A stretch of DNA of 64,000 nucleotides from Allodiplogaster sudhausi. Taxonomy: Eukaryota > Nematoda > Chromadorea > Rhabditida > Diplogasteridae. A program made the position numbers and the translations under genes. The notes under the pieces were generated by a model. The model saw only the letters and a list, made by a program, of their open reading frames with translations, had not been told where the DNA came from and made no database searches. The stretch is from contig CALZFC010000077.1 in NCBI GenBank assembly GCA_945643635.1, positions 335,001 to 399,000 on the forward strand, given 5' to 3'. Shown here one piece after another: positions 38,632 to 63,194 of the stretch (the first letter of the stretch is position 1; each line of letters begins with the position of its first letter).

Positions 38632-44981
<6,350 letters not shown>

Positions 44982-47023: not shown

Positions 47024-49361
47024 ATGAGCACTGTCGCTTCCGACAAGATCAAGGTGAATTAAATTTTTTTTATTTAGCCCAAAAACCAGGAATTTGTCAC
47101 TCTTTTTTTCAGTCATTATCACGAAGAGAACTATAGTAAAAATGACTGAGAAAAATAAGAGCATAAAAAGAGACATTTCGGAATGTCCACGGTATCCAAG
47201 CATACTGTAGTTCATTTTTGGTTATGGTATGCGGTGTGTATTCAACAGACACTTTTGTTGTCGGGTATTTCTGCTGCTCTTTAGTGCTTATATTTTCTTT
47301 TCACTTTCTTTCTAATCGTCTATAAAGATAATAAGCAATTTGTAATTAATAAATTAATTTCTAGACGGAGGAAGGCGTGAGTACGTCGGGAGACGGCGAC
47401 GACGGCCACAGCACGACAGGCTCGGGCGGGCTCGCTATTGACGAAGAAGACGAAGAGGAGTCCACGGCCACCATCAAGATGGAGGACGGTGGAGAGGTGG
47501 ATCGAGCGGCAGCCGGAGGAGTTGGAGTAGGAGGAGGAGGCGGCCAACCAGGCACCTCTGCAGCAGGAGCAGCTGGACCCATCAACAACTCCAAGGCAGC
47601 CGGCGGAGATGGTGGTGGAGCCACCACGGAGAATCCATGGGCATCGCCGAGACAGGTCAGAAATGTGGAGGAGATGGAGTGCTCCTTTAAGATGATGACA
47701 TGGAGGGGAGCATTAGTCTAAAGGGGAAAATGGCCCCTTCAAGATACTGAGGAAAAATGAAAATTAAAGATCTTCAGTCTCCGCAGAAATTCTGCTTGGA
47801 GTCTATTTTTAGCCCGTTTCGTAGAACTACTCCTAGGGGTCTATGTTTTGCCTCAATTTTCACGTGAAATGCTCCCTGGGTCTGTATTTAGTCATAGTTT
47901 CATAGACATCGAGGAGAATTTCTATGTTTAGCCCCCCGTGCCCTGGAACCGGCCACGTTTTATATATAGCCTTTGCGCATTTGGAAAAGGCTGAGACATG
48001 GCTTGTTTACCCCATGCTCTCTCTCTTGTTGGCTCTGGATAAGTGTGAGGAGAGGCACGTGGAGGAGGGGGGAGAAGGCTAGGGGCACATGTGTCATGGC
48101 AGGATGAGTGTGTGGGAGGGGGAGAGCATGTGATGAGGAGAGAGGCAGAGAAAGAGACGGGAGAGAGTAGCGGAAGATGAGAGAGTAAAAGAAGAGGGTG
48201 AGCAGACTCGGCCTGGTTGCTACTGCATTGTGAGTGTTTATAGCGATAATGACGAAGGCTTGGTTGGAGGGCGAAGGAGAGATAGAGAGGACAGAGTGTG
48301 GTGAGAGAGAGCGCGGGGGGAGAGAGAGAAAAGAAGTGAGAGATAGTTGCATCACACGCTCAATGCTGCCGGAGCTACCAATCGATTGGGAACAGCGAGT
48401 GAGGGACGCGGGGTAAGGGGAAGTAGAAAGGAGATGAGAGAGGATGAGTCACTGGGGACGAGAGAGAGAGAGTGAGAGAGATGGGAGATTGAGAGAGAAA
48501 GAATGAGAGATGAGAGAGAGTGAGAGAGAAGACAGAGGATGAAGTGTGGCTTGAAGAACAAAGGCCATGGTGAAATGTTCGTAGTGCTCGGCTATATATA
48601 GAGGCTCTTCAGTAGATTGATGAGTGTCTATTTGTTACGATAGTTAACATCCCGAGGGCATACAGGAATACATGTTAGGAAAGACTGGAAATACAAGAAC
48701 ATATGGGTGAAATAGAAGAAAATTAAAGATTTTAGTGAAATGGAACAAAATTCAAGAGTTTGGTGGAAGAAACAGAGTGATAAATTATTATTATTATATT
48801 TTAAGGAGCCCGTAAATGGCGTTGTCCAGCCGCGAGTTCTGCCCCCGATTGGCAAGCCCACCCGGCACACGAACCAGCTGGAGTACATCATGAATCAGGC
48901 AAGGGTTTCGAGATGTCATTTTAGAGACACTCTAAAGATGTGATGTGGTTGCTTCTTTGAAGTAGTGAGGAAAGTTGAGGAGGGTTTTGAGCCGTTTTGG
49001 TATTTAAACCTTAGGTATTTTGTTTTATTAGAAGAGAACATGAAAAAGATGTTGAATGAGTTGAAAAAAGAGAACCTGAAAGAGATGTTGAATGAGTTGA
49101 AGAAAGAGAACATGAAAAGTTGTTGAACAAGTTGAAGAAGAAGAAGAAGAGAATAAAATAGAAATAAGGAGGTTCTTTAGGTTCTGAAGCAAGCGCTGAA
49201 GCACAAACATGCGTGGCCGTTTGCGAAGCCGGTCGACGCTGCCAAGCTAGCACTCCCGGTTTGTTGTTAATTAATTAATATTATTTTATTTTATTTACGA
49301 CGTGAATACCATCAGCAAACATTGATGTTGAACAGTGAATATGGCGGCTGAAGAAATATAA

Positions 49362-49414
<53 letters not shown>

Positions 49415-52400
49415 TACCGCAATACACATATATTTAGCTTTGGTTAAAAAAAAGAATCTTATTCTTGGCAGGACTACCACAAAGTGATCGCGCGTCCCAT
49501 GGACATGAACACGATTGAGAAGCGCTTGAAGAACTGCTATTATTACTCGTCCAAGGATTGCATGGAGGTTGGTATTGGGGTGTGGTCTGTTGTGTTGTTG
49601 TCCAACACTTGTAAACACCTCTGGTCTCGGAGTCTCGTGTACACTTCTCTTGTCCTCCGTTGTGTCACTGCTTGCAAATTAGGAAAAAATGTAAATAAAA
49701 AAAATTAAAGAAAAAGTTAGATGCTTCAAAAAGTAAGAGTGATTGTTGTGTACGAAAAAACGCTTGATAGAAAGAAAAAAAAAGACATCTTTTTTGGAAT
49801 GACATTACAATCATTCTTACTGGTGTTTTAGCTCACCTCAATGGGTAATATAGATGTAAGTTCCGGGGATTTTTGATTGTCCATTTTAAAGCGGCTATCC
49901 AGGGACCTTAAAGTCTACCGTAACCCTTGAGAAAAGAGCATATAACAAAAGAGATGCAGCCATCGAAGTACGGTAGATTTTACGGTTCATCGATACCCCC
50001 TTTAATGAAGGAAACCATCTTCCAGGTCCTCTGCATGTGCATTTTCTTGAGTCTCGTATTTGCTTCTACTGGCATGCTCCTGTTTCACACATTTTCACGT
50101 GTTGAAATGGCTTTTTTTACTCAAAAATAAGAAGAAAAAACTTGTTCTTGCTTGCTTGCTTTCTCTCCGCCACCTGCACTGTAACTATTATCTCTCTCTC
50201 TCTCTCTCTCTTTTGGATATATCTTTCTCGTATATGCATATCAACACCGGAACATGGCCCAACAAGGAATGAATACAGGTCCAAATTATATATTTATTCA
50301 TCCACACTATAACTGGTGTCTCCTTTTTGGTGTCGTTGTTCTTTCCTGTGCCCGCGTCGAGTAATCTCGGCATTTTTAGAAGAAGGCAGAAAGAGCTGCA
50401 CTAGTTATGACACTAAAAATTGCTTCAAAAGAATATAATGCTCTGCCAGCCCGAAGCAATTTTTTTATTCCAGCAAAAAAAAGCCCTGTTTGAACAACGC
50501 CCACCCGCTTAGCTCTCCTTGTCTTTAATATTATTATGCTCTAATTGTATATATGAAAGAAGCTTTGTAAGAAAGCGTAAATGTGTCATTGAAGAGGCAG
50601 GTAAAATATGCCTTTAAATTTTGTATCTTTTTTTTCTTTTCTAGAATGGGCTCGAGCTCTTTCGCCTCTGAGGAAACAACGTGTACCTCTGCAGTCTATT
50701 GTATGAACATGGTCATTATATGAGCGGAGCGGAGAGACTTGATTATTTGGTTTAAAAGAATTAATTAAATGGAGAAGATGTGTAAATTATAAAATGCGCC
50801 TTCCGGTGTTGATTTGCAGTACACTTTGTTATTTTCTTCTTTCAGCAATCGAGTTCCCGTTTTTGTCTGATTATGTTCAACTTTTTACTTTCTCTCTTTA
50901 AAATGCATCAAAAAGGCCCAAGAATTTTCTAATTTTTTTTTCCGCTCAATAGCCTGCTGGGGACGCCTGTCATCGTTGTGATGTGATATAGAGGAGGAGA
51001 ACTGAGGTTCCACTGGGGGCATTAGTGTTCCTCTATTATGGTGCTACAGTAGCCTTTTGTTTTGTCTGGTTTCCTGAAATGTTCATTTTTAATCTGTTAT
51101 GTGGCCTGCTCTCTCAAACATCTCTACGGGAATCAAAATTGTGAGGCACATTTTTTTTTGTTTGTTGCATTCTAAGGGCTACCAGCGGATTGTTATCTTG
51201 TTAGGATAATTTAGTGAACTAAAAGATACTTTTTTTTGATTTGACAAATAAAATGAGTTAAAAAGAAAAGAATAGTAAAAAAAAAGAAACAAGTCTCTCC
51301 GGTCTCTCCTACTATCCTCTCCTCTATGCAGGACATAATGACCATGTTCAACAACTGCTACACGTACAACCCGCCCAGCTATGGCGTAGTGACGATGGCG
51401 AAAGAGCTCGAGCAGTACATACTCGGCCGCTGCGTTGACATGCCCTCTCAGGTAGTATACTGTAGCTCTCTGGGACTTTTCGTTGCAGGACTTCGAGGCA
51501 ATCTTCAAGAACTGCTATCAGTTCAACCAGAGCGAAGATGACGTATCGCTCATGTGCAAGAACATTGAGAATCTGTACAGAGAGAGGATCAAGGGTCTAC
51601 CGTCGCCGGTATTCGGGGAGGGAATACTGTAGTTTTCCACTTAGGATGCTAAAAGATTATGAAATCCTGGTTTTCTGGAATTTAGGATACTAAAAGATCA
51701 TGAAATAGGAAGTCTGTACTTTACATCCCTTAATTAAAATGATGATATCTAGCAGTTGAATAGCGAGTACCTGTATTTAAATTTTTCAAAATTAAATATA
51801 ATTAAGCTATTAAAAAAAACAAATATTTAATAAGTAAGAAGTAGAATACTCTTGAAACAGCTTATATTTGTTCGTTACAGGAAGTCGAGATTCCTCGTCC
51901 TGCATGTAAGCGTGGTCCTCCTGGTCGCGGCGGCTTCAAGAAGGGCGGCGTCGGCCGCGGAGGGAGCATCTCCGGCAGAGGAGGAGGAGGTGCAGGAGGT
52001 ACGCCCAGAGAATCGCCGGCACGGACCCCGGCTGCTGTGCCAGCCGCGGCCCGAACCCCGGCTCTGCCCCCCTCCTCTGGCGGTGGTGCCTCAGGCTCAG
52101 GCTCTTCCTCGTCCTCTGGCACTGTCCAGCCGGAACAGCGTGTCGTCCTTGAGCACTTTCACAAGGCGACAACGCTTGCAGCAGGTCAGGATCCATTTGG
52201 AGGAGCGCACCCGGGGGTGTGGGGGCATTTGGGGGACCCGATTGGGAGTGAAAGGGTCCTTAGGAGCCCCTTTTGGGGTGAAAGGGATGAGACAGAGCGG
52301 ACGGAGATGGATAAACGGTGAGAGAGAGACGGTTTTCCCCTGCCCCCAGCACACATTTTGTACGAGGAAAAATTACATTTAGCATAGGCGATTAGATACT

Positions 52401-55260
52401 TTAGGCTTTCCCAAAACAGCACAAAAACTATTTTTTTAATAAAAAATCAAAACGAATTATTTTAAAGAACTTGTTAGAACTTCCAAACGACAAAAACGGA
52501 AAAGTTGAGCTAACAAATTGAGAATTTTTTTGCTTAAATAAATTTCTTCAAAATTTTCCATGTGCGCAGAAGAATGGATCCTACTTGTGAAGGCTTTTGT
52601 GTTTTGAATGTGCTGAGTTTTGTGCTTGTCCGTAATCCCCCCCCCCCCACCTCCTTATCCGAGAGCAAGATGATTCACCCCCATTCATCCGAACAAGATT
52701 CCAAGATTCACCCTCCTGGCCTCTGAGCAAGAGTGCTTGTTTTGCAAGTTTTTCTGTGCTAGTTTGCCCTGTTGTCGTTTAGAAAAGCTCAAAGTTTTAC
52801 TTTTTAAACGTATGATGCAAGATAATTATTAGATTTTTTTTTCTTCTGACTTCCCGCTTTTCCGCCTGAAGTTTCTATACTAATATGCCTCGTGCAAGAT
52901 TAGTTCGCTAGAAGCAAGCTCCGTATTTGTCATTTTATCCCCTCAGGGATCTATATATTTCAGCCCTATGTGTGCAAGATAGGGAAGATAGCAGTGCGAT
53001 GTGAGACGTGTATATAGCTTGTGTTGTGCACGTGAGGAAATTCAAATGCACCAGAATTCAACTCCTTTTCCAGTGTCTCGCGAATCTTCCGTCTCTGTGC
53101 AGAGGGGCGCCGCTGATAGCTCTTCTCTTCTTGGAGACGTCGCAGATGTTGTCTCGGACGAGGTTATTATAGAATATTATGTTAATTAATAAATAAATAG
53201 AGAAAATAATAATACTGTATCGATATAACGTAAAATGGCCGTTAGGCGAGCCTAATAAAACGTAGAAAAAAAGGAAAGCAAAATTCAGCCAAACGGCGAA
53301 GTGAAATTCGTGGCTGCGCCCGCTCCGCCCGTCACGCCTACCGTAGTCCAGAAGGGGGTCAAGAGGAAGGCGGACACGACTACAGCGGAACTGGATGCGG
53401 CCAAGGTAGTGGTGGGGCGGAGTCGGCGGGAAATTTGAAATTGTGTTCGAAAAATTATGTAGAATTAAAGTGAATTAATGAACAAAATATCAGTTTTTTT
53501 TTAATTGCAGGCCCTGAGCGCCTCTTCCCGTCGCGAGTCTCGTCCCGTGAAGCGGCCGCACCACCAGCCGATCGACTACTCCCAGCTGCCGCCACGCATC
53601 AAGGGCAAGCTGTCCGAGCAGCTCAAGTACATCACCAAGGTCATCAATGACCTCTTTGGCAAGAGGTGCAAGGTTAGCATTGAGGTGCTGGGTGAAGCAA
53701 GGGTCTGGCTTTGGAAATGGGTGGGAATCTGGGTAGTCTTGGCGGTTCTAAATGGAATCAACACTGGTATTGAGGTGTTGGGTGGAAAAAGTGGTCTGGC
53801 TTTGGAAATGGGTGGGAATCTGGGTAGTCTTGGCGACTCTAAATGGAATCAACACTGGAAGTGTGGCGGTTGTAGATGTTTATTTGCTTGTTTATTGATG
53901 GGCCTGGGAACTTAGGACTGGGCAAGGAATCTGGCAATGAGGATTGGTCTAAGGAACCTGGGGATTGGACAATGAGGTTGATATGGCAAGAGCCGCTCCA
54001 AGACATGCCATCTCATTTGTCTGTGTTATAAGCAGGCCTTCGCGTGGCCTTTCCTGGAGCCAGTGGATGTGGAGGGTCTGCGACTGGACAACTACTACGA
54101 CATTGTGCAGCATCCGATGGATCTGGGAACGATTAAGAAGAAGCTCGAAGCGAAGCAGTACGCCGGAGCCGATGAGGTGGGTTGTAAGATGGTGAAAATT
54201 GGGGCCAACTACCCCCACCCCCACTTACTCGGTTCCTAAAGGTTGACTTTGAGAGCGAGAGAGAGAGAGAGAGTAAGAGAGAGAGAGAGAAAGATAGAGA
54301 TAGAGGGAAAGAGAGAAAGCGAGAAGGAAAGAGAGAGAGAGCGAAAGAGAGAGAGAAAGAGAGAAAGAAAAAAGTTTTTCATTTATTTTGCCACCCTGTT
54401 TTATTTTTAAGAAAGAGCCTTTAAAAAAAGTTTGGTAAAATAAGAATTGTTAAAAACAACTCTCTTCAGGTTCGCGCTGATGTCTTGCTCTGCTGCACAA
54501 ACTGCTTCAAATATAACCCCGTCGGAGATGTCATTCATAATGCTGGGAAGCAGCTACAGGTTATTTTTTAAGAAAAAAATTATCGGAAAAAGAAGCAGAT
54601 TATTATATAAAAAAATATTTAAAAAAAAATTAAGAGTAAAAAGACAATATAAAAGAATTATTTAAAAGAAATATAGAAAGTAAGTAAAACGGAGATTCTA
54701 AATGGTGGTTCGAAAGAGCTTGTTAAAGTGATGTCCTTGTCTCGACTTGCAGACATACTTCGAGGAGAAGTACCGCCACTTGCCAGAGGAGCCGATCGAA
54801 GAGGTGCACATGGAGGAGGCGCCGGTTCTGCCGGCTGCGACCGCTGGTGAGAATGGTGGGGGGGGGGCAATGACGGGACCCCCATTTCGAAAATTGCCCT
54901 TTTTTCATGAGGCAATAATGGGACCTCCCATCTCGAAGAGAACCCCTGTATCTGAAAACGTAAATGTTGCCAAGAAGGGAATGCTGTGAAATGGGACCGG
55001 AAATTGCATGCTATAATAATTTGCATAATTAATTTGCATAAGTGGGAGGGGCGTGCTATATTAATTTGCATAATTGCAGGTTCTTCCGGTCTTGGCACGA
55101 TGCCAATGCTGGCTGCCGCCGCCGTCGCTCCTCCTCCTCACATGGCACTGGACGATGACGAGAAGGTCGAGAACTACCTGTTCCAGGTGCAGAGTGAACA
55201 GAGGAGGATGCAGGAGAAACTAGCCGAGCTGCAGAGACACACCCAGGTAAGGCTTATGGC

Positions 55261-55295
<35 letters not shown>

Positions 55296-55460
55296 GTCTT
55301 TTTCTTCTCTTTCACTCCCTCTCTCTCTATCTCTAGCTCTTTCCCTCTCGTCTCTTTCGTTCTTCCGCCCTCTCTCTTGTTTATCTCTCTCTCTCTCTAT
55401 CTCTATCTCTTTCGTTCTCTTTCTCTCTCTCTCTCTCTCTCTCTATCTCTATCTCTTTCG

Positions 55461-55510
<50 letters not shown>

Positions 55511-55515
55511 ATCTT

Positions 55516-55553
<38 letters not shown>

Positions 55554-55723
55554 GTCTTTTTCTTCTCTTTCACTCCCTCTCTCTCTATCTCTAACTCTTT
55601 CCCTCTCGTCTCTTTCGTTCTTCCGCCCTCTCTCTTGTTTATCTCTCTCTCTCTCTATCTCTATCTCTTTCGTTCTCTTTCTCTCTCTCTCTCTCTCTCT
55701 ATCTCTATCTCTTTCGTTCTCTT

Positions 55724-55762
<39 letters not shown>

Positions 55763-55763
55763 A

Positions 55764-55800
<37 letters not shown>

Positions 55801-58800
55801 ATTTGTCGACATAAATATGTCCTTTCCTTGCAGAGTCTAATGGATCTGAAGTTCGCTCGGAAAGAGGCCAAGTACGACGGCCGTCCACAGCCTGCAATCC
55901 CGGCCGATCTGATCACGTCGGTGCAAGCAGCCCTGAAGCCCCTCTCGCCGCCCCATCACATGTCCGGCTCTTCCTCTCTCCTGCCACCCCTCTCCACGTC
56001 GACGCCGTCGACATCTGGAACCATGCTGCACCAGCAGCAGCCGATGATTGTGCCAGGCGCAGTTACTCAACCAGTGGGCAGACCGAAAGGAAGACCACCA
56101 GGCAGCAAGGCGGCCATGGCCAATAGTCACGCCATCAAGGTGAGGGTACAGAAAAAGAAACCCTACTTTTAGAGGGGTTTTGATAATCCTTTAGAAGGGG
56201 AGATACTGAGAAAAGTTTGGCGGTTTTTGAGAGGGATTGAGAGAGCGCGAGAGAGAGAGGGAGAGAGAAAAAGAGAAAGAGAAAGAATCGGAGAAAGAGA
56301 TATAGTGAGCAGAGGTCAAAGATATCTGTTCAGGCCAGCGCCTCTCCACCCACGTCGAACGGGCCGCTCTCACCGCGACTTCGCGGTGCTGCGACAGCGG
56401 AGAGAGGAAGGCAGCCGGCGGCGGCCGCGGCGGCAGCAGTGCCAGCCGGTGTCGAAGCACCCCCAGCCAAGCCAGGACGCGGACGCAAGCCGGGATCGAA
56501 GAACAAGGCAAAGGTTAGGGGAGAGAGAGAAGGAGGTAGAGAGAGAGAGAAGGGGGTAGAGAGAGAGAGAGGGAAGGAGGTAGAGAGAGAGAAGGGGTAG
56601 AGAGAGAGGAGATCGAGAGAGAGAGAGAGAGAGAGCGATGGAGGTAGAGAGAGAGAGGAGATAGAGAAGATGGAGAGAGAGAGAGAGAGGAGATCGAGAG
56701 AGAGAGAGAAGGGGGTAGAGAGAGAGGAGATCGAGAGAGAGAGAAGGAGGTAGAGAGAGAAAGAGAGGGAGGGAGGTAGAGAGAGAAGGAGATAGAGAAG
56801 ATGGAGAGAGAGAGAACAGAACATTCTATGAATGGAACAGTGGTTTAGCATGCAGCAGAACTGGGTGCAGTTGGATGGAAATCAGTGCGGGATAGGATAA
56901 AAACGGGGCCATGTTTCCCGTAAGTTCCCCATGTAAACAGCTGACTTTAATGTCTATTCCGCCGCTAAAGAAATGAAGAAAAAGAAGAATGCTGAAAAGA
57001 TTCCATGATTGCAGGTGGAGCCGACAGAACTGGCGCCGCATCATCAGATGGCTCCTCTGGCAGCAGCCGCGGCCGCTCCCGCTCCTGCTGCCCCGGTGGC
57101 GCCCGCGCCCCCACCGGCACCAGTTCGGGAAGCCTGGCGAGACGAGTACCAGTTCAACTCTGAGGATGACGCCTCGTCCGCACCCATGTCATACGATGAG
57201 AAGAGGCAGCTATCGCTCAACATAAACAGACTTCCCGGCGAGAAGCTCAGCAGGGTCGTGCAGATCATCGAGGTCAGAGAGTGTGGGGGTCTCAGAGGCG
57301 GGGGGGGGGAGAATTGGGTGCCATAAAAGGATTCCCTTTTCCATCACTTGGGGAAGTGCTCACCATCAGAAATATTAGGGCCAGGGAGTAGACAAAGACG
57401 TTCGCTCTCGAATCTATAATTTTAGGAGGAAGCTGTTTAGGGAACTTTTAAAAATTGTTCTTAAAGATAGAATCTCCCTCTTGAACAGTGTTGAAGAACT
57501 GTCCCCTTTTCAGGCTCGCGAACCATTGCACGACTTTAATCCGGAAGAGATCGAGATCGACTTTGAGATGCTCAAGCCGACAACGCTCAGAGAGTTGGAG
57601 GCGTTCGTCGAGGCTAGCCTCAGGAAGCGACCACGCAAGCCGAATAGTGAGTGGGCAGAATGATTGGGGGGGGGCAGGATTGCAAGGGAAGCTATAAGGG
57701 AATGTATTTGTCTAGATTGGAGGAAATGATAATGCTGGAGTGGAACAGAGAAGTAGAGAAATAGGAGCGACGAAGGGAGATTAGAGAGAAATAGAGAGAG
57801 AGAGTGCATGATTGAATTTTGCAAGACGCATGGGAGCTTTGCCTACTTGTACTCGAATGAACCCTTGTCATATTTCTTCAATGGTACAGTCTATTTCACG
57901 GACCGTATCTGATGTTGAGACCTGAACCAGAACCAAACCCCACTCGGAATCCCACTTTTGGCTCTCTGCCAAATATTTTGTCCACTCGCTCCCATCGCTT
58001 GCAGTCCCGAAGACAGCGGCAGAGGCGGATGCGAGGAAGCGAGAGCTCGAGAACCAGATCAAGAGGCTCGGTGGCAATCCACAGGCAGCCGGAGCCAGCG
58101 GCAGCAATGCGCATGGCAAGTGCAAGGGATTAAGAGAAAGAGAGAGAGAGTGAAGGAGGGAGAGAGAGAAAGAGAGAGGGAAGGAGGGAGAGAGAGAAAG
58201 AGAGAGTTTTTAAATTAACAAGAGCAGAGGGAGATGATAGTGAAAGAAGAGTGGGAAGAGAGGAAAAAGAAGAGTTAAGGCACGGAGGAGAGAAAGAAAA
58301 GAGGGAGAGAATAGTGAGAGGGAGAGAGAGAAAGGAAAGAGGGATTATGGGAACACGAGAGAAATTAGAGAGCGTGAATATAGGGAGTATCGTGCAAGAC
58401 TGCTTCGTTGATCATTACCTTAATAAAATTTGTTGATGCCTTGAATGCTTCAAAATTTGTAGGGGTTAAGTTGTTCAGGTAATAGTTGTAAGTAGGGTAC
58501 TGAACTAGAGAATACCATTAAGTACTAGTTAGTTTTTTCGGCGTGCGAAGCTGAATAAATTAATTATAATTTAGATTTTCTCACTTCAGAAACCACGGCC
58601 GCTGCAGCAACGCGAGCTCGTTCTTCTTCATCAGAATCTTCTTCGTCTGGTTCCTCCTCGTCCTCTGGCTCATCGAGTGATTCCGACTCAGAGTCAGGTT
58701 AGAGGAGAGGAATGCGAGGATTCCCAACAACATGAACACCCCCTTTAGCCCACCCTCCTTTCCAGGTCCTTTAATCATCTATCTCTATTCATACTACCTC

Positions 58801-61132
58801 CCTTCTCTCCAAGTCCTCAAGACCCTCTACGAAAGGGCCAACTTCTTTATTCTCGGTGTCCTGGCCCTGGGGCGCTGGAGAGGTGGTGATATGAAACAGA
58901 TTACACCGGAAGCGGTGATATGTGGTGACACGAAGAGGGGGACTGGAAGGAGGGTGGCAGGCAAGTTAGAGAAAGAACCGGAAACTCACAGAAACATGCG
59001 CTTGTCTCTCCGGATTTACAAAGGCTAACAGTTGAAACAATTGTAAATACTGTTGGTTGCAATGGTTTTATGTTTGTCAAGAAGGCATACATTTTATTCC
59101 CTCTCCTTGGGAGTGTGATTCATTGATGAGAGACAACCCATGACGGGTATCCTTTTGCGTGAGCAGACTGAGATGGAGAGGCTCAACCCGACCGACCACT
59201 CACCGTCTCGGCGGTGTGAGGAATGACACGCGAAGCAGTACAACCCATCTCCTTCTCCAACTCTCTCTATCTCTCTTGTCTCCCTGAGGCGGGCCCGGGA
59301 GGAAGGCAACCACCAGGCAAGGATGTGGTTGCTGTTGTGAACACCCCTTTCTAACCCATAGAACAGCCACACAGATTTTGCCTGTTGTTTTTAATCCCAA
59401 ATTTTAGTCCGCTTCCCATAGGTGTTGTCTGAAAATGATAAATGGAAAAAGTGGAAAAAATGTATATGCCGTGCCCTCCTTCCGGGCCCTCCGTCGGTCT
59501 CTCTCCCGTTTCCGAGGCTGAAAGGCAGTTTAAAATGACATTGGGGGAAAAGGGGGAGTTTCGTGGGATTTACGTTAAGCAAATTACTTTTAAGGAAGAT
59601 TAACTTTCATAAACTGCCTTTCAGCACTGTGTTTCTTCGTCACTCTTTCTTTGTCTCTTCTTTTTTCTTGTCTCTTTTATCTCTAAATCTTCTTATAATC
59701 AGCATTTTGTTTTATCTCCTAACAATAGAGAAACACCTCCTTCTCCTTGTGCTCGATGGCTCTTTCTACTATTTTAGTATCAGATTATTTTCTTCTTTTT
59801 TTTTTCTCTGCTCTCGCTCGATCTCTATTTGATGAGGAATGGTTATCTCAATAAGTGGATGGATGTGTACATAGGCCAAGATTTATTCTTGTTCAGTTTA
59901 ACCTCCTTAAGAATTATAATGTTTTTTTCTCCTCGTCTTCTTCTTCTTCTCCTCGTTTCAAACGTTTTTAAAGCCAAAATAACAATGGCTACTTATAAGA
60001 TGCCCGCGCATTTATGTTGTCTATATTGTATTCAGTCGCAAAAGACAGTTATTACTCTATTGCTGCCGATTTTTAAAGAATCTTTTCTTTTTACGTAGTC
60101 TTAAAGTATGGTTTTAGAAATGAAAGCTTACTAATATCCGAATGTATATTTTGTTTCCTTTTTTGCATGCTTAATAATACGTGTTTTCTGTTTATCTATA
60201 GCATCCATGATTGTTCTCTCTCTCTCTCTCTGTCTCTCTCTCTCTCTCATTTTTTGCTGAGTGTATTTACGGGTTTATCGATTTCTTACTCTTCTTTTGT
60301 CTCTCTCCATCTCTGGACTTAAGTTATTCATGCTCACTATTCCATAAGAAACCCTCAACGAATTGTTTTTTTTTTCTTTTTCTTTTGCCACTCATGACTG
60401 TCTTATTTGAGCTTGCATGCGTTTTTCTTTGCAAAGGTGCTGCACTCTGTTCGATTTAAGTACCCATGTTCTATTTTGCATTGCCCATATTTGGAGCTTG
60501 TATTTATGCCAGTATCCATAATGTTTTTGTCGAGGCATTAGCTATGGAAAGAAATATTAAGATTGTACTACTATTAAGGAAGGAAACATTTCTGTTCCTA
60601 ATTATTACACAGAAAATGTCGATTTTTATATTGATTGTATGCTATGCGAGACAGTTGTAACCGTCGTTATTAATAACAACCAAATATAAATAAGCTGGCA
60701 AGAATGCTATTTTCTTTTTAAACACTGTAATGCATAGTAAAGCCGGAGAGACAAGCAAGTGTGTGTTGGGAGGGGAGGTTGTTGAGGAGGGGGCAAATGG
60801 ATTCTACTTTGATCAAGGCGAGAGATTAGAATCAAGAAATATGTACTTTGTTTTAGATAATTGATAAATTCAGGAGCGAAAAATAGTTTTTTTTTGGTAA
60901 TCTTATCAGTTTGATATGTATTCTGTAAAAAAAAAACAGGAGTTGGAGCTTTATTCGGTGGGGGTTACTGTAGAATCTGGTGACTTGTGTTGCGGTAGAA
61001 GTTTATTAGGTTATGGTAGATGGCCTTAGTTTTGGGTTACGGTAGAGTCTGGCATAGATTTTGGATTACGGTACAGTCTGATATATCTTTTCTATTTCGG
61101 TTGAGTCTGGTTTATCTTTTGGATTACGCCAG

Positions 61133-61178
<46 letters not shown>

Positions 61179-61195
61179 CTAGTATTTCCTTCTCA

Positions 61196-61232
<37 letters not shown>

Positions 61233-62983
61233 TCTTGTAGGCGGAGCACGTGTTGACGAGTGGACGTCGTCGGCTAAGACCAAGAAAGCGGCTGCTGCCG
61301 CAGCCGCTGCGGCCGCTGCAGCTGCAGCTGCTGCCCAAGCTGCCGCCGCCACCCAGAACGGCAAGGCGCCAGCCGCGGCCACAAATGGCGCAGCAGCAGC
61401 CACTCGACCCGCCGGTGCCACGCCCACCGTACCATCGCTTCCCGCGCCAGCAGCTAAGAAGAATGAGGAGAAAAGTTAGTGTGTTACACAATGCAGCATT
61501 AAAATTAGAAAAGCTAGTGTTACACAATGCAGTAATAAGATTGTGAGTGTGTGCCTATTTAGACTAGACTTTTGAACTCTGATGATGGTGAATCCGAGAC
61601 GGTTAGTGAGGCGAGAAAAAGAAAGGGAAAAAAAGCTTTAACTTTAGTGGTAGGTAAGAGGATTAATAAGGCGCTTTAACTAAGATATGAGACCTATGAA
61701 TGATAAAAAAATATTTTATTTTCAAAATGAATCAACCTTTAAAAAAAAGGCAATTTTAACAGAGATGGACGAGAAGGCAGTAGCTGCTGCTGCTGCTCCA
61801 CCAGCGCCCGCAGCAACAGCTGCAGCAAGAGCATCACCGCCAGTGCCGCCGCCGATGCCATTGGCAGCCGTGACGGCGGCCGTGCCATCATCACGTCCAT
61901 CGATGGCTGGCGCCCCACCGACGATGGCGCCTGCCTCAGCCGCAGCAGCCCTCGCCGCTCTCGCGCCACCCACCACCGGTCAGGGCGTAGCCGCCGTGCT
62001 GCAGATGGAGCGAGCGATGAGGGAGGAAGAAGCGGCTGCAGCAAAAGGAGTACTAGGAGTCGGCAACATTGTACACCAAGGAGCAATGCCGATACATCAG
62101 AGTGCCAAGACGGTCGCGCCTGCGGGCATTGGTATGGGGTGTTTTTTTTAATTATTATTTTTGTAATGTTGGCCTTTTTTGGTCATTGTCAGTAGTTTTC
62201 ATTTCAATAAAATGAAGTATAGCTTTCTATCGGTCAAGAATAATGGTAGATATCATTTCATTCCTATGGGTCTTTAAAATATGGGAATTAGAATAAGTAT
62301 TTTCTGATTTATTGGAATGGTTGGAAAAGATATAAGGAGAGAAAGAAAAAAATGATGGCTGTTACAGGTGGCTCGATCCTTGACCAGCTCCTGCCCTCTG
62401 CGATGGCAGCAGGAGGGGACGAGAAGAAGAAGGCGGCAGGGGATGCATCCAATGAGGCATTCAATATGTTTAGAAGACAACAGAAGGAGAAGGAAGAGAA
62501 GGTGCGTTCGCGTTGATTCTCTCTCTCTCTCTCTCTCTCTCTCGTTCTCTCTCTGTCGCCCTCGCTCTCTCTCTGTCGCTCCCTCCCTCTCTCTCTCTCT
62601 CCCTCTCTTTCTCTCTGTTTCCCCTTCAGTCTCTCTCTCTCTCTCTTCCGCTCTAGCTCTCTCTCTACCTGTACCCCTCTCACCTTTTTGTCTGTTCTCA
62701 TAAAAAAAGAAAGTTAACAGAAACGTATGTCAATAAAATATAAAGACAAATAGAATTGAATGAAAATAAAACTGATTTTTTTTTCAGCGCAAGGCGCTTA
62801 AGACGGAAGAGGATCAACGAAGGCGCATGCGAGATTATGGTGGAGGAGGAGGCACGCCTCAGCTGGCAGGAGAGGATGAGGCGGCTAGGATACAGAGACT
62901 CAGAGAGGAGGTTAGAGAGAGAGAGGAGGGAGAGATAAGTGAGGGAAAATGAGAGAGAGAGAGAGAGACAATGGATTGTGAAA

Positions 62984-63019
<36 letters not shown>

Positions 63020-63194
63020 TGGAGTGAAATATATATAGGGAGAGGAAGAGAGAGAGAGAGAGATAACTGTTAGGCAACATATTTTCACAATTCCTTTCCC
63101 CTTCTAGGAGAAGAGGAAGCGCGACTCACAACTGGCCCACGTCGACATTTCCAGTCAGATGGAGCAGATGGCGAATTTCGAGGCCAACTTTTAG
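47024..63194 (+). CDS. bet-1: BET-family double-bromodomain protein, BRD4 type, complete, 26 exons
   Basis: Exons 47024-47053, 47365-47655, 48806-48898, 49181-49258, 49472-49567, 51332-51451, 51489-51608, 51881-52184, 53074-53162, 53289-53405, 53511-53672, 54036-54176, 54470-54559, 54753-54846, 55080-55246, 55834-56139, 56334-56513, 57015-57272, 57514-57646, 58005-58115, 58590-58697, 61241-61474, 61763-62131, 62368-62501, 62788-62910, 63108-63194. The protein binds acetylated histones and promotes transcription. Seen: BD1 ([22 protein letters not shown]), a Gly/Arg-rich linker, motif [13 protein letters not shown]2 ([15 protein letters not shown]), AT-hook-like [11 protein letters not shown] and GRGRKPGSK, the ET domain ([20 protein letters not shown]), the serine-rich SEED, long Ala/Pro tracts, and a C-terminal basic helix ending [15 protein letters not shown], like the P-TEFb-binding end of BRD4. 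Length is 1344 aa with both exons 6 and 7, 1304 with one. Introns 3 and 20 use GC donors. Confidence 0.93.
49040..49130. repeat. Short tandem repeat before BET exon 4
   Basis: GATGTTGAATGAGTTGAA with an AGAGAACATGAAA spacer recurs about three times, some 50 bases upstream of the exon 4 acceptor. Confidence 0.75.
49364..49413. repeat. (AAT)n microsatellite
   Basis: Trinucleotide run in BET intron 4, a different repeat class from the CT/GA tracts around it. Confidence 0.95.
49568..51331. other. BET intron 5, 1.76 kb
   Basis: AT-rich with one CT run at 50192-50212. It precedes the duplicated exon pair, where regulatory elements choosing between the two exons would be expected; no specific motif is identifiable by eye. 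Confidence 0.7.
53679..53858. repeat. 90-bp direct duplication at the start of BET intron 11
   Basis: Two adjacent 90-bp copies beginning ATTGAGGTG start six bases after the donor of exon 11 and differ at few positions. Confidence 0.9.
55255..55803. repeat. CT compound array with an internal ~300-bp duplication in BET intron 15
   Basis: Apart from CT runs, the block CTCGTCTTTTTCTTCTCTTT...CTTTCGTTCTTCCGCCCTCTC...CTTTCGTTCTC occurs twice (from about 55294 and about 55552) in the same order, so the tract grew by block duplication. Confidence 0.8.
56520..56815. repeat. (GA)n/GGTAGA compound array in BET intron 17
   Basis: GA runs interspersed with AGGAGGTAGAGAGAG and GGAGATCGAGAGAG units, purine on the transcribed strand. 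Confidence 0.9.
58698..61240. other. BET intron 21, 2.5 kb, the largest in the gene
   Basis: The first codons past exon 21 give GGT TAG, so retention would end the protein after the SEED domain. The intron holds a segment of more complex sequence (58750-59550), AT-rich DNA, a CT run near 60217-60250 and a CT array just before the acceptor (61135-61230). No gene in it is supported. Confidence 0.6.

Follow-up and report, generated by a model that had tools for sequence, protein, structure and literature searches.

The window analysed here is a 64,000-nt stretch of the nematode Allodiplogaster sudhausi (contig CALZFC010000077.1, hereafter C77, positions 335001 to 399000) from an assembly of 351.8 Mb in 382 contigs (GCA_945643635.1). 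Its (+) strand carries a complete gene of the BET family, which runs from ATG to stop at positions 47024 to 63194 of the window and comprises 26 exons in a model that we made by hand. The pieces encoding bromodomains 1 and 2 (BD1 and BD2) matched the Pfam Bromodomain family and the piece encoding the extra-terminal domain matched Pfam BET (PF17035), which places the gene in the BET family, and the predicted protein ends in NFEANF, an ending common to many nematode relatives. Two neighboring exons within BD1, numbered 6 and 7, encode homologous versions of one segment, and we consider it probable (roughly 85%) that they are an ancient, tandemly duplicated pair of mutually exclusive exons, their exclusive splicing being read from annotation. 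The features bearing on this pair are as follows.

47024–63194, (+) strand: BET gene with BD1, BD2, and the extra-terminal domain (26-exon hand-made model; Pfam)
49472–49567, (+) strand: exon 5, the common exon before the pair, ending in phase 0 inside BD1 (gene model)
49568–51331, (+) strand: intron 5, 1764 nt, upstream of the pair (gene model)
49588–49598, (+) strand: UG-rich 11-mer TGTTGTGTTGT, a candidate CELF-type site, from nt 21 of intron 5 (motif match)
51332–51451, (+) strand: exon 6, 120 nt, phase 0, exon-6-type BD1 segment with Tyr-Gly at the positions of BRD4 144/145 (Pfam, BRD4 alignment, segment tree)
51452–51488, (+) strand: gap between exons 6 and 7, 37 nt, GT..AG, 38 nt in the second gene copy (sequence)
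51489–51608, (+) strand: exon 7, 120 nt, phase 0, exon-7-type BD1 segment with Asp-Asp at 144/145 (Pfam, BRD4 alignment, segment tree)
51609–51880, (+) strand: intron 7, 272 nt, downstream of the pair (gene model)
51881–52184, (+) strand: exon 8, the common exon after the pair, beginning EVEIPRP (gene model)

Exons 6 and 7 are of equal length, both begin and end in phase 0, and exon 8 is in frame after either of them. The 37 nt between them compare with 105 to 2543 nt for the remaining 24 introns of the model, and reading through this gap shifts the frame and leads to stops within exon 7. The coordinates, lengths, phases, and translations of the two exons, together with the size of the gap, are all as given in an earlier description of this DNA (the initial annotation), which had also claimed that the two 40-residue products are homologous from end to end. 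The products share 13 of 40 residues (60 of 120 nt at the DNA level), and their alignment scored 61 with BLOSUM62, whereas shuffled versions of exon 7 averaged 18.6 and never exceeded 37 (n = 5000), which bears that claim out. In tblastn searches of the 64-kb window, the best non-self match of each exon was its partner (E-value of 1.9e-4); the next best matches had E-values of 0.012 for exon 6 (to a BD2 exon) and 0.59 for exon 7.

When appended to the upstream exons, exon 6 and exon 7 gave Pfam bromodomain scores of 69.2 and 67.7 bits, respectively, while neither exon gave 46.8 bits and both together 76.5 bits. The exon-6 and exon-7 forms matched human BRD4 BD1 with 114.2 and 113.9 bits, respectively, and aligned to the same BRD4 stretch. 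With the loop Asn taken as residue 140 of BRD4, which anchors the residue numbering used here, the segment corresponds to BRD4 residues 128–167, i.e., the end of helix B, the BC loop, and helix C. The conserved BC-loop Asn of bromodomains (Asn140) is present in both exons and both align to BRD4 BD1, so the earlier statement that each exon brings the acetyl-lysine-contacting Asn and the end of BD1 holds. Segment scores of exon 7 were 95 to human BRD4 BD1 and 70 to BD2, with the BD1 pattern kept, and those of exon 6 were 102 to BD2 and 94 to BD1, i.e., about equally near. The idea that exon 6 is a copy of the BD2 exon was rejected, as the borders of the BD2 exon in the gene differ and as the exon-6 clade lies beside the single BD1 segments of Trichuris and Trichinella in a segment tree of which BD2 was no row. 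The likeness of exon 6 to BD2 is taken as convergence in the loop.

That tree, built from 74 segments (66 of them different), placed the 30 exon-6-type rows in one clade (support of 100/99) and the 34 exon-7-type rows in another (100/100), with rows that are a chosen subset of the records and types that were first assigned by similarity to the exons of the window. It has 40 columns, and the branching order within the clades is poorly resolved. Mesorhabditis belari P0014 was entered with its exon-7 segment alone, and the tree omits Globodera P0086 (truncated exon 6 plus exon 7), Tigriopus P0061, Caenorhabditis sp. 36 BET-2 P0080, Bursaphelenchus xylophilus P0039, and BRD4 BD2. Because the two types form two well-supported clades, both exon versions appear to have been kept since an old duplication. 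The segments of Trichuris, Trichinella, and P0046 fall on the exon-6 side, and a long stem (1.81) leads to the exon-7 clade. This pattern fits one duplication near the base of Chromadorea followed by fast change of the exon-7 copy, where the single-segment picture of Dorylaimia rests on annotated Trichinella and Trichuris proteins and does not prove absence of a second segment there. Identity to the segments of other species reaches 85% for the exon-7 product and 75% for the exon-6 product, and in a tree built on the remaining protein sequence the gene of the window adjoins Pristionchus fissidentatus (Shimodaira–Hasegawa-like approximate likelihood ratio test [SH-aLRT] value of 99), a placement that points to a diplogastrid host.

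The records came from a protein search with the double form (73 proteins) and from further searches (20 proteins for Caenorhabditis bet-2, and the best 120 of 1553). We classified 69 nematode-side records, of which four were treated as the outgroup (one Trichuris, two Trichinella, and P0046), each with one segment. Among the 65 records that are chromadorean by name, 21 had the exon-6 type only, 24 the exon-7 type only, 17 both in the order 6-7, two a truncated exon 6 plus exon 7, and one neither, so that exactly one type is found in 45 of 65; the script classification behind these counts was corrected by eye (P0021 was set by hand to exon-7, and P0074 was counted as exon-6 only though it is without upstream BD1), and, since the records are 90% clusters with several per species, the counts are not independent. 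The species covered include ascarids, filariae, oxyurids, strongylids, Steinernema, Meloidogyne, Bursaphelenchus, P. fissidentatus, and Plectus, with only the exon-7 type among the examined records of P. fissidentatus and Plectus. The comparison with BET orthologues of related nematodes, which the initial annotation had proposed, revealed that both segment types recur across Chromadorea; its view that the segment is present once in a normal BET protein fits the human and arthropod sequences that were inspected, whereas chromadoreans depart from it.

An exchange of one segment for the other is seen at a single locus of C. briggsae (L3Y34_011252, whose prefix we take to denote strain VX34). Records P0070 and P0078 of this locus differ in only two respects, an N-terminal insert of 107 residues and the segment itself, in which 38 exon-6-type residues are replaced by 39 exon-7-type residues. 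Gene models of the C. briggsae QX1410 and VX34 genomes are reported to have been built from PacBio Iso-Seq and short reads (PMC9011032). Wuchereria and Brugia records display the same swap amid scattered substitutions, and so do two M. incognita records, which may be separate gene copies. Together with the 21 exon-6-only and 24 exon-7-only records and the two kept clades, the swap at the C. briggsae locus supports mutually exclusive use at the level of annotation, as the initial annotation had proposed. As a separate observation, in P0014 (M. belari) and P0086 (Globodera) the exon-6 segment is cut after NPPHYGV or NPPHFG and is followed by the exon-7 segment, which reflects either predictors avoiding a very short intron or the use of a cryptic donor; exon 6 of the window also has GT at this position (GGC GTA GTG).

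In the genus Caenorhabditis, bet-1 and bet-2 are sister clades in the rest-of-protein tree (SH-aLRT of 96, with long branches), and the bet-1 records examined are of the exon-7 type. In contrast, bet-2 of C. japonica and C. remanei has both types, the C. briggsae bet-2 records have one or the other, and the C. elegans BET-2 record is of the exon-7 type, so a clean split with exon 7 in bet-1 and exon 6 in bet-2 was rejected. The C. elegans bet-1 A, B, and C cDNAs carry one segment each, of the exon-7 type as judged by eye (PMC9835578). These isoforms belong to the same family but share BD1 and, again as judged by eye, differ further downstream. Judging from the sequences, the exon-6 type appears to have been lost from C. 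elegans bet-1.

The same genome offers a second comparison, since bromodomain matches on contig C6 are spaced as in the window and this stretch holds a second copy of exons 5–8, which would be either an allele or a duplicated chromosome. Both exons are present in this copy, with an identical exon-6 protein and one Ser-Thr change in the exon-7 protein. Between the two copies there is 1 nucleotide change in the 120 nt of exon 6 and there are 3 in the 120 nt of exon 7, with three of the four synonymous, while the aligned sites differ at 103 of 1698 in intron 5 and 30 of 271 in intron 7. Taken together, the exons are thus more conserved than the introns (4/240 vs 133/1969 aligned sites; P = 0.0009), as is exon 6 alone in comparison with introns 5 and 7 (P = 0.006). 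The gap between the exons is the most changed sequence between the copies and is still 38 nt long in the second one. On a wider scale, bromodomain genes are paired on two contigs at the same spacing (C77/C6, C56/C129, and C33/C43) in this assembly of 352 Mb, a pairing that would arise either from two haplotypes assembled apart or from a duplicated genome; the divergence of intron 5 between the BET copies amounts to 6.1% of aligned sites.

Predicted structures provide a further view of the pair. In the AlphaFold model of Strongylus P0011, which has both segments, the exon-6 segment is folded in BD1 with ten-residue means of 85–89 (64 at the end) in the predicted local distance difference test (pLDDT), whereas the exon-7 segment is not folded (pLDDT of 47–48). 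In comparison, the segment of Haemonchus P0030, a record of the exon-7 type only, has a pLDDT of 90–96. Foldseek matched the P0011 model to human BET bromodomain structures. These models favor the use of one segment at a time.

Several observations weigh against mutually exclusive use. Both exons are multiples of three, and joining 6 to 7 or skipping both leaves the frame intact. A total of 17 of the 65 chromadorean records join both segments, most of them without stated transcript support; one is Brugia isoform P0071, which is truncated at its N-terminus, another is P0080, whose exon-7 segment is shortened, and three begin inside exon 6. Moreover, the P0011 model suggests that BD1 of a double form could still be folded by way of the exon-6 segment, and for exon 7 alone the higher conservation relative to the introns does not reach significance in the comparison of the gene copies (P = 0.08).

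If both exons were constitutive, BD1 of chromadoreans would simply contain a duplicated 40-residue segment, which would agree with the 17 records that join both in order, with the preserved frame, and with the double form having the top Pfam score by best stretch (76.5 bits). We regard this explanation as unlikely, given that 45 of 65 records are of a single type, that two records of one C. briggsae locus swap types, that the gap is 37–38 nt while the other introns are at least 105 nt, that the predicted structure of the double form leaves the exon-7 segment unfolded, and that the C. elegans bet-1 A, B, and C cDNAs are single-segment (PMC9835578). A regulated minority of double-inclusion or double-skipping transcripts with a role of its own could draw on the same preserved frame, on a double form that might fold through exon 6, and on the double gene models found in several families (including Brugia Bm10119 isoform c); the short gap would nevertheless argue against efficient joining of 6 to 7, and we rate such a minority as quite improbable.

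For mutually exclusive exons, splicing as 5-6-8 or 5-7-8 would yield BET isoforms that are unlike only in the last part of BD1, each transcript presumably taking one exon and a regulator presumably making the choice. Joining exon 6 to exon 7 is probably poor, because the distance between them is small in both gene copies and falls far below the length of any other intron in the model; a gap of 37–38 nt would discourage that step. When the 25 donors of the gene were scored with a leave-one-out matrix, that of exon 7 was the lowest and that of exon 6 the eighth lowest, and the acceptors of both exons scored well. This bears on whether one exon is a dead relic that is left unspliced in this species, for which the lowest-scoring donor of the gene and the apparent loss of the exon-6 type from C. 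elegans bet-1 (i.e., loss does occur) could be invoked. However, both exons are open, their acceptors are good, only 1 and 3 of 120 nt changed between the gene copies, and products of other species are up to 85% (exon 7) and up to 75% (exon 6) identical, and we consider a relic very improbable.

As for signals that might direct a choice between the two exons, the 11-mer TGTTGTGTTGT near the start of intron 5 is the single match in 64 kb on either strand, with none in 100 shuffles, and its last base is changed from T to C in the second gene copy. It resembles what we take to be the CELF/UNC-75 consensus and is a candidate that serves as a lead only, as is one TGCATG at position 50032; both sites were picked after the sequence was read. 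RNA structure across the exon pair was no stabler than in shuffles (z of 0.02).

The two segment types differ at defined positions of the BC loop. Asn140 and Cys136 are found in all 64 exon-6- and exon-7-type rows, and Phe139, Asp144, and Asp145 are each found in 34 of 34 exon-7-type rows. Among the 30 exon-6-type rows, position 144 is Tyr or Phe in 23 and Ser in five, and position 145 is Gly in 17 and Asp or Glu in 10; human BRD4 BD2 has His at the position equivalent to 144. Asp144 and Asp145 line the rim of BRD4 BD1, and position 144 is His437 in BD2, a basis of BD1/BD2-selective drugs. The differences between the exon-6 and exon-7 pockets would fall at positions that separate human BD1 from BD2. 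With Asp144-Asp145 retained in exon 7 and replaced by Tyr-Gly in exon 6, the isoforms may prefer different acetylated tails, and a changed ligand preference between the exon-6 and exon-7 BD1 is plausible. Human BRD4 carries its two pockets in separate domains of a single chain, whereas the nematode gene would have two BD1 versions chosen by splicing. A broader proposal, to which we give somewhat less than an even chance, is that these exons form a switch of ancient origin by which splicing sets the specificity of a BET reader. The acidic Asp144-Asp145 rim of exon 7 and the exon-6 loop leaning to human BD2 would then allow splicing to change the acetylated tails read by BD1, and perhaps the BET drugs bound, with the choice partly moved to gene duplication in Caenorhabditis.

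Homologous mutually exclusive exons are already known in nematodes from coq-2 and mrp-1 (PMC7434440). For exons 6a and 6e of coq-2, in nematodes and other rhodoquinone-making animals, exclusivity is backed by RNA-seq (PMC7434440). The coq-2 gene resembles the BET gene in having a homologous neighboring exon pair, mutually exclusive and conserved across helminths, that alters the protein core, but it concerns an enzyme substrate pocket with RNA-seq, while the BET pair concerns a histone reader pocket whose exclusivity we infer. Likewise, mrp-1 has equal-length alternative exons in nematodes, but it encodes a transporter and its exons are described there as originating independently in each lineage, whereas the tree of the BET pair fits a single origin (PMC7434440). 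Going by titles and the start of abstracts among the matches listed, we found no report of an exon pair in a nematode BET gene in the open-access literature.

If chromadoreans do have two spliced BD1 pockets, assays built on a single cDNA would miss one of them and C. elegans bet-1 would be a poor model, and the pair would constitute a natural experiment in which the protein of one gene has kept two pockets since early chromadorean evolution. BET bromodomains are a major class of drug targets. Bromodomain inhibitors have been proposed against filarial worms (PMC6890932). The question of exon choice can be tested directly with public RNA-seq of many nematodes.

Other features of the window lie outside the exon pair. 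Two introns of the BET gene, at 48899–49180 and 58116–58589, start with GC instead of GT (GCAAGG and GCAAGT, respectively). Intron 11 contains a 74-nt direct repeat (53702–53775 and 53793–53866; 93% identical, 91 nt apart), and long simple repeats rich in CT or GA occur in several introns (~55260–55800, 54250–54340, 56520–56820, 61135–61235, and 62517–62670). Upstream of the BET gene, the (−) strand holds exon-like frames of the TIP49/RUVBL type of AAA+ protein at 40718–40957 and 42591–42869, which matched Pfam TIP49 with E-values of 1.9e-25 and 1e-9, the second query departing from the window's translation in its first residues.
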